Assembly (NCBI GenBank): GCA_022510725.1
Contig: JAFLSW010000002.1
Location: 104,467-168,466 of the forward strand
DNA: 64,000 nt
Direction of reading: 5' to 3'
Source: Lachnospiraceae bacterium
Lineage (GTDB): Bacteria; Bacillota; Clostridia; Lachnospirales; Lachnospiraceae
Part shown: positions 12,374-55,268 of the stretch, piece by piece
How the letters are laid out: the number at the start of each line of letters is the position of its first letter
How positions within the stretch are numbered: the stretch's first letter is position 1
The notes under the pieces: model-generated
What the model saw: the letters and a program-made list of their open reading frames with translations, nothing else
The model's database searches: none
What the model was told of the DNA's origin: nothing
Translations under genes and position numbers: made by a program

Positions 12374-12718
12374 CTATTCGGCATAATATGGAATGATAAT
12401 GTAATTACCAATTATTAATTTATCATTTTTCATACCGTTAATGGATTTGATCTCATCAATATATGCGTTGATGGATTGATAATGTGTTTCATCCATATTT
12501 TCTTCAGCAATACTCCATAAGGATTCACCGGGCATGATCATATGACTGGTATAATACTTAAATTCATTTGCCCCTTCAGAGGTATTTGCCTTTGCAGACA
12601 AAGAAAATACAGATAATGCAAATATTAAGACAAAACATCCTGTCATTGCACCAAATGCCATCTTTTGCATCATTCTTCTTTTTGCAGCTCTTCTTTTTAA
12701 ATTGGATCTTCTATTCAT
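12374..12718 (-). CDS. LysM-domain membrane protein, YneA-like (divergent from lexA)
   Basis: N-terminal TM plus YTSHMIMPGESLWSIAEENMD LysM; start at MNRRS after GGAGGC; location next to lexA. Confidence 0.8.
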   Translation of the reverse strand: MNRRSNLKRRAAKRRMMQKMAFGAMTGCFVLIFALSVFSLSAKANTSEGANEFKYYTSHMIMPGESLWSIAEENMDETHYQSINAYIDEIKSINGMKNDKLIIGNYIIIPYYAE

Positions 12719-12755
12719 AAAAGTGCCTCCTTTGTATCTCAAACATAAACTTAAT

Positions 12756-12858
12756 CGAACATCCGTTGCAAACATTTGTTCTGATATATTTCATTATACG
12801 AATATGTGTTCGGATTGTCAAGTAAAAAATCGAACAAATTTTCGGAATATATGTTTGC
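12756..12858. promoter_or_regulatory. Cluster of LexA/SOS-box-like sites in the lexA/yneA-like intergenic region
   Basis: CGAACATCCGTTGC, GCAAACATTTGTTCTG, CGAATATGTGTTCG, CGAACAAATTTTCG, GGAATATATGTTTGC. Confidence 0.8.
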
Positions 12859-12945
12859 TTTTTTGAAAAAATAATGTTATACTAAGATAAAATATAAGCA
12901 TATGCTAAAGAATGATATGCGTTTGCTAATATAAAGGAGGTCTTT

Positions 12946-13560
12946 ATGGCACAGAGGATTTCAGCAAAGCAACAGGAAATTTTAGAATTTATAAAGGAAG
13001 AGATATTAAAGAGAGGCTATCCCCCGGCTGTTCGGGAGATCTGTGAGGCGGTTCACTTAAAGTCCACCTCTTCTGTTCACTCTCATTTGGAAACTTTGGA
13101 GAAAAACGGTTATATCAGACGGGACCCTACCAAGCCCCGTGCCATTGAGATCGTGGATGATAGTTTCCAGATGGTAAGACGGGAAATGACCAGTATTCCC
13201 ATTGTCGGTACGGTTGCTGCCGGCATGCCTATTCTGGCACAGCAAAATATTGAGGGCTACTTCCCTGTTCCTGCTGATATCGTTCCTACCGGCGAGACCT
13301 TCGTATTAAAGGTTCAAGGTGACAGTATGATCAATGTGGGCATTTTTGATGGGGATCAGATCTTTGTACAGCAATGCAATACTGCCAGAAACGGTGATAT
13401 TGTTGTAGCTCTGGTTGAGGATTCTGCTACGGTTAAGACCTTCTATAAAGAAAACGACCATATCCGCTTACAGCCGGAAAATGACTCTATGGAGCCTATT
13501 ATTGTTGAAGACTGTGCTATTTTAGGAAAGGTATTTGGCGTATTCCGTTTGTGCCGTTAG
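12946..13560 (+). CDS. lexA: LexA repressor
   Basis: w[37 protein letters not shown] cleavage site; [13 protein letters not shown] catalytic Ser. Confidence 0.98.
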
Positions 13561-52130: not shown

Positions 52131-52160
52131 AAAAAAGACTGCTGCAAGATCCTGCAGCAG
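52131..52160 (-). terminator. Intrinsic terminator after zapA
   Basis: Minus strand CTGCTGCAGGATCTTGCAGCAGTCTTTTTT. Confidence 0.85.
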
Positions 52161-52176
52161 CCGTATTTGATTGGTT

Positions 52177-52581
52177 TTATCTGCTATTTTTCAATTCAGC
52201 TTCCATGCGCATCATCTTTCTGGTGCCTTCATTTAATTCTTCCTGCATGGATTTAATGCCTTTTTCCGTATTTTCAAGTTTGATCTGTGTGGAAATCAGA
52301 TCGTGCTTTAGGTCATAAAGCTCTTTTTCTTTGCGCTCCAGTTCCTCTTCTAATTTAGCGATCTTTTTCTTTGCCTGAAAATAATCGTCTGCAATATTTA
52401 ACTGTACCAATACATTTTTATAATCAACAGATTGTTTGCGGAAACTTTCTAATTTGTTGTATTCCGCAATTTTATTATTCAGATAAATGGCCACACGCTG
52501 CAGATACTCTTCGCTTTCACTGCCTCTTAAGGTATATACCTTACCGCCGATCATGACCTCTGTTTCTGTTTTTACTGACAT
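52177..52581 (-). CDS. zapA: Cell division protein ZapA
   Basis: EVMIGGKVYTLRGSESEEYLQRVAIYLNNKI. Confidence 0.92.
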   Translation of the reverse strand: MSVKTETEVMIGGKVYTLRGSESEEYLQRVAIYLNNKIAEYNKLESFRKQSVDYKNVLVQLNIADDYFQAKKKIAKLEEELERKEKELYDLKHDLISTQIKLENTEKGIKSMQEELNEGTRKMMRMEAELKNSR

Positions 52582-52703
52582 ACTATCTCTCCCTCGTACA
52601 CCGCAAACACAAGATGTGCCGCCTCATCTTCAATCAGATACCATATCTATTATAGCAGAAACCTGAAAGAAAACAACCGTTTTGGGAGAATTTTCTATTC
52701 TTT

Positions 52704-53708
52704 TTAATGATTTTCCGGTTTGGACAGCCCAAAATGGAGATATGCAGCCTCTGTAACCACCCTTCCCCTGGGGGTTCTGTTGATCAATCCGTTCTGGATC
52801 AGGTAAGGTTCATTCACATCTTCGATGGTGCCGGGATCCTCTCCGATAGCCGCAGCCAGGGTATCCAGACCTACCGGTCCGCCACCGAATTTATCGATCA
52901 TCATCATCAAAAGATTCTGATCCACTCTATCCAGACCAAGCTTGTCCACTTCCAAAAGATCCAGCGCAGAGGAAGCCACTTCTTTTGTAATAATCCCATC
53001 ATAGCGCACCTGTGCAAAATCTCTGACCCGCTTTAACACCCGATTGGCAAGCCTGGGAGTCCCACGGCTTCGTCTGGCCATTTCCAGAGCGCCTTCCTGT
53101 TCAATGATCACATTGAGGATGCCTGCAGAATGTAAAATGATCTGCACCAGTTCCTCTACACTGTAAAATTCCAATCTGTTGATAACACCAAAGCGGTCGC
53201 GCAAAGGAGCGGATAACAGACCTGCACGGGTCGTAGCACCTACTAAGGTGAACTTGGGCAGATCCAAACGGATGGATTTGGCCGTAGGTCCCTTTCCGAT
53301 CATGATATCGATACAATAATCCTCCATGGCAGGATATAAAACTTCTTCTACCTGACGGTTTAGGCGGTGTATCTCATCCACAAACAACACATCTCCGTCG
53401 GAAAGACCGCTTAAAATGGCTGCCATATCTCCCGGTTTCTCAATAGCCGGTCCGCTGGTAACCTTAATATGACTCCCCATTTCGTTGGCAATGACACCGG
53501 CAAGAGTAGTCTTACCAAGTCCGGGCGGTCCATAAAATAAAATATGATCTAAAGGCTCATTCCGCTTCTTGGCAGCCTCAATATACACCTTCAGTGTCTC
53601 CTTCGCTTTGGATTGACCGATATAGTCATCCATCTTTTGGGGACGCAAGGTCTTTTCAATACGCTGGTCCTCTTCGGTTAAAGAGGTCTCGATGATTCTC
53701 TGTGCCAT
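52704..53708 (-). CDS. ruvB: Holliday junction branch migration ATPase RuvB
   Basis: [51 protein letters not shown]. Confidence 0.99.
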
Positions 53709-53727: not shown

Positions 53728-54327
53728 CTAGACCATATAACGCAGGGCCTGTTTTAAGATATCCTCTGTGGTAGTATCTTCTGAGATCGGAACCTGGGAA
53801 ACAGCCTTTGCCGCATCACTTATGCCATATCCCAAAGCTGTAAGGGCATCTACGGCTTCTTTCTTGATCACATCCATATCGCCAGTAAAGATCGGTGCTC
53901 CTTCGGATTCACCTGGAATCGCTGTGATATCCGATAAGGATACTTTATCTTTTAGGTCCAGGATGACCCGTTCTGCCGTTTTCTTACCGATGCCGGGAGC
54001 TTTTGCTATAGCAGCAATGTCCTGGCTGTAAATGGCAAATCGAAGATCATTGGTGCTCAAAATAGAAAGAATGGACAACGCACCCTTTGGGCCTACTCCG
54101 TTTACGGTGATCAGCTTCTGGAACAGTTCCAGCTGATCCTTGGTATCAAAACCGTATAATAAAAAGGCATCCTCTTTCACATAGGTATAGGTATGGATCT
54201 TTAACTGCTCGCCCTGTTTAAAGGCATATCCATAGGGAACCCGGATGCGAAACCCCATGCCGTTATTCTCTACAATAATGGAATCTTCCGATACTTCGGC
54301 AACTATGCCGATCACATATGCAATCAT
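53728..54327 (-). CDS. ruvA: Holliday junction branch migration protein RuvA
   Basis: [55 protein letters not shown]; start corrected from the long ORF. Confidence 0.97.
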
Positions 54328-54815
54328 AATAATCTCCGTTTTATCAGTATTTCTCCTGCCATGCCCATCAGGTAACCGCTCACGGCCCCTGCTATCAGCA
54401 AGATGGGCAGATACCCAAAAATGGCAGTGTTTTGTACAAACATAAAGGCGATCAACAATTGTCCTATATTGTGAAATACGCCGCCGGCCATGCTGACCCC
54501 TTCCATATCCATCAGTTTTGTTCTTTTTAAAAGAATCATGACCATAAGACTGATTGCGGCACCTGCCAGGGAATAAATACCGCTGTAAAAACTTCCGAAT
54601 AGCAATGCCGTCAAAAAGATTCTGGCTCCCTGGTACAGAATACATGCCCTTCCCCCATAGGAATACAGCAAAAGCACTGCCAAAATATTAGCCAGTCCGA
54701 TCTTGATCCCCGGCACTGACGGAGCAATGGGAAACAGGGATTCCACATAGGATAGGATCATCCCAAGGGCCAATAATAAGCCTAACTTCGCAATTCGTTC
54801 AGTACGCAAGGGCAT
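54324..54815 (-). CDS. Gx transporter family / heptaprenyl diphosphate synthase component I-like protein
   Basis: LLLALGMILSYVESLFPIAPSVPGIKIGLANI. Confidence 0.9.
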   Translation of the reverse strand: MPLRTERIAKLGLLLALGMILSYVESLFPIAPSVPGIKIGLANILAVLLLYSYGGRACILYQGARIFLTALLFGSFYSGIYSLAGAAISLMVMILLKRTKLMDMEGVSMAGGVFHNIGQLLIAFMFVQNTAIFGYLPILLIAGAVSGYLMGMAGEILIKRRLL

Positions 54816-55161
54816 CCACCTCCCCATCTCTCGATTCGATGGAAATGATCAATTTGTGAGGAAGACAGGCAATGACTTCCCCCGGCCGGGAAACGGATCC
54901 CGTATGAACACAGGTCTGATTAGAGCAGTTGGCTTCGCTGACGCTGACTGCACCATCGTCCACCCGGATAACATTAAAACCGCCCTTTCCGTCTTCAACA
55001 GTAATTGCAGCCCCTTCATCCAATGAAAGCGTTTCATAGACTTCCCCGTCCAGGGTGATGATGATCCTGCCTGCTCCTTTTCCTGTCTTTGAAAAGAAAA
55101 GAAACGCCCCTGCAATGAAAAGAATAAGCAGTAAAAAGCCCAAACTAAATATCCGCTGCAT
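54799..55161 (-). CDS. NusG domain II-containing protein
   Basis: N-terminal TM; GAVSVSEANCSNQTCVHTGSVSRPGEVIACLPHKLIISI; start moved inside because 55196-55224 is a promoter/SOS box. Confidence 0.85.
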   Translation of the reverse strand: MQRIFSLGFLLLILFIAGAFLFFSKTGKGAGRIIITLDGEVYETLSLDEGAAITVEDGKGGFNVIRVDDGAVSVSEANCSNQTCVHTGSVSRPGEVIACLPHKLIISIESRDGEVDALAY

Positions 55162-55195
55162 TTTGGAAGCCTTATATGTTTCTTCATCTTTTTCT

Positions 55196-55224
55196 ATCCT
55201 AGCACAATCGAACATATGTTTCAA
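55196..55224 (-). promoter_or_regulatory. Promoter with embedded LexA/SOS box upstream of nusG-II–Gx–ruvA–ruvB
   Basis: TTGAAA-N17-TAGGAT on minus strand; CGAACATATGTTTC at 55209-55222. Confidence 0.85.
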
Positions 55225-55268
55225 GTCTTTCTGAAATATTCCTTTTAGAAGTTACATCTGTCAATGAT

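Follow-up and report, generated by a model that had tools for sequence, protein, structure and literature searches.

A perfect LexA operator in the predicted promoter of an operon that places ruvAB behind a flavin-export-type gene pair in a Lachnospiraceae bacterium

LexA control of a ruv operon has already been demonstrated by binding in Clostridium: the ruvCA operon of Clostridioides difficile has a GAAC-N4-GTTT operator 65 bp upstream of its first gene, with the binding of LexA being shown by surface plasmon resonance (PMC4234289). In Listeria, the member of PF07456 is EetB, an ECF-type S subunit that binds FAD and is required for extracytosolic flavinylation; PF07456 genes are paired with eetA in 3,328 of 4,214 genomes, often together with apbE and Rnf genes (PMC9973259). 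Here, we have analysed a window of 64,000 nucleotides (64 kb) from a Lachnospiraceae bacterium, where an operon of the order nusG_II-gx-ruvA-ruvB follows a predicted SOS promoter. This operon resembles that of C. difficile in its type of operator and in having Holliday-junction genes under predicted LexA control, but its operator is known from the sequence and it starts with nusG_II and gx, not with ruvC. It resembles the Listeria EetA/EetB extracellular electron transfer locus and the Clostridial Rnf/ApbE clusters (PMC9973259) in having a PF07456 protein of the ECF-S fold beside a small membrane protein, with apbE and rnf being present in the focal genome and rnf or apbE being located alongside in some of the relatives that share the linkage; it differs from them in that the pair forms one unit with ruvAB, behind a predicted SOS promoter, and in that FAD export is here read from sequence and model. 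The reading that is well supported in the sequence is SOS control of ruvAB of the ordinary kind, in an operon that is unusual for the flavin-export-type pair at its head.

By its genes and operators, the genome carries a normal SOS system: LexA and RecA are both encoded and have boxed promoters, as is characteristic of the LexA/SOS regulon, and strict LexA boxes also precede recA, uvrB and the gene of a dinB-type polymerase. The gene of the presumed repressor, lexA (12946-13560, plus strand; PF01726 and PF00717), is located in the window, and a cluster of five LexA-box sites (12754-12859; scores 18.3, 12.3, 9.8, 8.2 and 7.5) lies between lexA and a divergent yneA-like gene. In this area (12374-12860), the divergent neighbour of lexA encodes a LysM protein with a weak match to YneA (46 bits, with a cut-off of 60); the arrangement is like the Bacillus-type lexA-yneA divergent SOS pair in that lexA is opposite a LysM protein with several boxes between them, but is unlike it in that the score of the YneA model is under the curated cut-off.

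The box of the operon, CGAACATATGTTTC (55209-55222, plus strand; GAAACATATGTTCG in the reading of the operon strand, i.e. the minus strand), has zero mismatches to the Gram-positive LexA consensus CGAACRNRYGTTYC in a pattern search, conforms to the GAAC-N4-GTTY operator of the Gram-positive LexA/SOS regulon and is the sole zero-mismatch match in the window; pattern searches across the genome (2.37 Mb) returned two perfect boxes, this one and one upstream of recA. An initial scan with a strict half-mismatch rule lost the weaker boxes of congeners and a GGTT-type palindrome, and a matrix was used instead, trained on 84 boxes upstream of lexA/recA from 29 genomes, with the box at 55209-55222 being left out. 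The matrix score of this box is 18.2 (median of the training boxes, 18.35), and about 0.05 sites that score like it are expected per shuffled 64 kb. When up to two mismatches are allowed, the number of matches in the window does not exceed that expected by chance (12, against 8.7), and the case for CGAACATATGTTTC therefore rests on its exactness, its position and its conservation upstream of related operons.

The promoter scan places a -35 hexamer, TTGAAA, at 55219-55224 (minus strand) and a -10 hexamer, TAGGAT, preceded by TG, at 55196-55201 (minus strand), both facing nusG_II-gx-ruvA-ruvB; the sequence on the operon strand is TTGAAACATATGTTCGATTGTGCTAGGAT. The box extends over the larger part of the -35 hexamer and over ten of the 17 bases of the spacer, so that the operator overlaps the predicted promoter at 55196-55224, and the same hexamer with the same box occurs in the related genomes L051, L052, L053, L054, L069, L083 and L104. 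As a promoter, TTGAAA-N17-TAGGAT is a 9/12 match, and such sites are no more frequent than by chance (13 found, 16.2 expected). A second promoter-like site, TTGACA-N18-AATATT (55235-55264, minus strand; 10/12 matches, a class also not above chance in number), lies upstream of the operator and is a putative basal promoter. The initial annotation had proposed both the full agreement with the LexA consensus and the position of the box over TTGAAA-N17-TAGGAT; both proposals stand, and the sequence supports the placement of a perfect LexA operator in the promoter of the operon.

The operon is encoded on the minus strand and comprises nusG_II (54799-55161; PF07009, E 9e-30), gx (54324-54827), ruvA (53728-54330), the start of which overlaps the stop of gx (ATGA), and ruvB (52704-53708, by profile match); the profile matches agree with the co-directional gene order that had been described earlier, and the four genes overlap or almost touch. 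The next co-directional gene, zapA (52177-52581, minus strand; PF05164), is kept in this order in relatives and probably belongs to the same transcription unit, with an intrinsic-terminator-like hairpin and T run after it (52137-52162, minus strand) as the likely end of the operon. Between ruvB and zapA, there is a weak box-like site, AGAAAACAACCGTTTTGG (52668-52685; score 10.1), which is probably due to chance. A separate promoter directly upstream of ruvA, responsible for all SOS induction, had been named as one of the findings that would speak against shared induction; a second SOS box was sought between nusG_II and ruvA and none was found in the focal genome, so that SOS control of ruvAB from the present promoter must traverse nusG_II-gx. 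On the operon strand, there is no terminator-like site between the upstream DUF4037 gene and nusG_II, and read-through from the leuC-leuD-TPR-DUF4037 genes is thus possible.

The start that is annotated for nusG_II, at 55224, had been called an ATG inside the promoter and therefore wrong; its codon is in fact TTG, the TTG of the -35 hexamer, so that the objection to the start holds and the naming of the codon does not. The next in-frame ATG falls inside the LexA box, while the first in-frame ATG downstream of the -10 hexamer, at 55161-55159, has AAGG (55170-55173, minus strand), the likely ribosome-binding site, eight bases ahead of it and is followed by a hydrophobic anchor and then by NusG domain II; ATG 55161 is the likely start. 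The possibility that nusG_II is a NusG transcription factor, with an N-terminal domain and KOW, has been rejected: NusG domain II occurs alone, behind a hydrophobic N-terminal stretch.

The Pfam match of gx is PF07456 (E 2.5e-35), a family named heptaprenyl diphosphate synthase component I, and the initial annotation had described the protein in those terms. The name is misleading, as PF07456 is the EetB family, with the ECF-S fold. As searching the PDB with the sequence of gx gave no match, the comparison was made through the fold: the AlphaFold2 model has six helices and a pLDDT of 92, and its top PDB matches are TmRibU and a bacterial ECF S component, i.e. RibU-type S subunits (probability 1.00 and TM 0.63-0.65, but a best E of only 0.0075). 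A role as a subunit of heptaprenyl diphosphate synthase is rejected on this match to ECF S subunits. With its PF07456 match, the ECF-S fold of its model, and genes for ApbE and flavinylated partners in the genome, gx is, as modelled, a member of the EetB-type family of FAD-export S subunits, and nusG_II would, by synteny, correspond to EetA. In the focal genome, gx and apbE each occur once and an rnfD-G-E-A cluster is present, so that a target for exported FAD exists; apbE and rnf are located away from the operon.

In order to survey the family, 100 genomes were drawn, nearly all from different genera; 98 of them have a RuvA match, and in 35 of these 98 gx is located directly upstream of ruvA. 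Seven congeners were added for the comparison of the boxes, and the 300 bp upstream were scanned with the matrix for the highest-scoring site. Conservation of the box at orthologous operons, which had been suggested as a check, is present and not universal: a score of at least 6 (a threshold picked after the scores were seen) was reached upstream of 22 of the 41 linked operons and 24 of the 57 lone ruvA genes, but of 2 of the 40 lone pairs of nusG_II and gx, against 2-3% of shuffles, and 19 of the 41 linked operons have no such box within 300 bp. The picture is the same at a score of at least 10 (15/41, 19/57 and 1/40). Linked operons differ from lone pairs with p=1e-6, or 3e-5 without the extra congeners, in rows that are related by descent. 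Close congeners have a weaker half-site, GAAATRTATGTTCG, with scores of 6.5-8.4; half-sites of this weak type are also present in conserved lexA boxes (GGAATATATGTTTG).

The position of the operator relative to the pair varies among the relatives. The operator-promoter stands before nusG_II in the window and in L069; in L083 and L104, where gx is located elsewhere and has no box, the operator-promoter TTGAAACATATGTTCGAT/A with its -10 is found directly before ruvA; in L051, nusG_II-gx precede ruvA, with the same operator-promoter being located after gx and ahead of ruvA; and in L076, a weaker box occurs just before ruvA. On a weakly supported RuvAB tree, at least 16 changes of linkage and at least 19 changes in the state of the box are required, and too few supported pairs were available for a pair test. 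A scan of named genomes gave 46 gx loci, none adjoining ruvA, and a draw at the level of the order gave no linkage in 29 inspected loci, of which 25 belonged to other families and four to additional genera of this family. As ruvA keeps the box where nusG_II-gx are located elsewhere, and as lone pairs hardly ever have one, we assign the SOS switch to ruvAB; most simply, these sequences can be read as a ruvAB promoter from which ruvA is separated, in some lineages, by nusG_II-gx.

The linked operon is flanked by rnf genes in L059, L062, L063, L064 and L074, and by an apbE gene of the opposite direction in L060, L061, L065, L068, L071, L075, L077 and L078; given these neighbours, a flavinylation cluster adjoining ruvAB is a likely source of the gx-ruvA linkage. 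Between the divergent apbE and the operon, a degenerate LexA-like palindrome is found in L060, L065, L068, L071, L077 and L107 (in L107, ruvA alone). In all of these except L065, where the arrangement is related, the palindrome is of the type GCAATCGAACATGTGGTTGC and is flanked by divergent promoter-like sites, the -35 hexamers of which are located at its two ends or close to them. It is the sole intergenic copy in all six genomes, while L319 overlaps just a 90-codon chance frame; its scores of 7-12 are below those of lexA/recA boxes, and the binding of LexA to it is a guess from the sequence.

We hold it to be probable, with good confidence, that the promoter is an SOS promoter under repression by LexA, that its evolution was tied to ruvAB, and that nusG_II-gx are promoter-proximal passengers. 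LexA at 55209-55222 would cover the -35 hexamer and part of the spacer and would block RNA polymerase; after DNA damage, activated RecA would bring about the self-cleavage of LexA, and the derepressed promoter would yield one transcript over nusG_II, gx, ruvA, ruvB and probably zapA. Located between the SOS promoter and ruvA, nusG_II-gx are predicted to be co-induced through their position; a selected or functional benefit of this is hypothetical. The role of the pair, most likely FAD export for the ApbE-dependent flavinylation of extracytoplasmic redox proteins, e.g. RnfG/RnfD, is probably unrelated to DNA repair. Of the link between DNA damage and the pair that had been proposed at the outset, the LexA operator in the shared promoter stands, but the link is best explained by ruvAB, with the box being nearly absent from lone pairs.

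It is quite improbable, in our judgement, that the link is adaptive, i.e. that, upon DNA damage, one shared LexA operator serves to induce extracytoplasmic FAD export (in some genera, also flavin transfer by ApbE) along with Holliday-junction repair, so that Rnf or other proteins outside the cytoplasm are more strongly flavinylated, with selection keeping nusG_II-gx (in some genera, apbE) under LexA. The linkage and order of gx and ruvA in 35 genomes of different genera would fit such selection, as would the box-like palindrome beside apbE in six genera, with the -35 hexamers of both directions abutting it in five, but lone pairs are boxed no more often than shuffles (2/40), the box of L051 lies after gx, and no strict box was found near the distant apbE and rnf of the focal genome. 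We also think it rather unlikely that LexA control is weak and has a small effect on the operon, with ruvAB being expressed mostly via upstream read-through or TTGACA-N18-AATATT: the path open to read-through, the second promoter-like site 40 bases upstream and the weaker half-site of the close congeners are consistent with it, but the focal box is near-ideal and overlaps the -35 hexamer, and the weak half-site type is shared with conserved lexA boxes. Finally, a chance match, with the operon being outside LexA control, would agree with relaxed matches that do not exceed chance and with promoter-like sites that are not enriched; we have rejected it as extremely improbable on the score, which equals those of lexA/recA boxes, on the right position, and on a conservation in relatives far above that of shuffles.

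The preferred explanation, of a ruvAB promoter with passengers, adds a predicted LexA-controlled operon that is led by membrane proteins of the flavin-export type, and the misleading heptaprenyl-synthase annotation is replaced. In the part of the literature that our search covered, an SOS link to eetB/PF07456 is not described, and neither is a joint occurrence of apbE, rnf and ruvA. The presence of the pair both beside ruvAB and apart from it offers a natural comparison for the question of whether the passengers of SOS-controlled operons are ever functional.

Similar palindromes occur elsewhere in the relatives. Two perfect GAACATATGTTC palindromes (2211-2222 and 2918-2929 of L007) are located beside an adjacent gene pair of about 250 aa each, without a match in Pfam or NCBIfam, which is a candidate for a pair of unknown SOS genes. 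A GAACATATGTTC palindrome also separates a cytosine methyltransferase from a TnpV/Mob_Pre mobile-element module (L008, 2068-2079), GAACAAATGTTC is found immediately ahead of the gene of a DUF2971 protein (L005, 2017-2028), and GAACAAATGTTT precedes a gene of the hibernation-promoting-factor type (S30AE; L006, 2034-2045) by about 150 bp.
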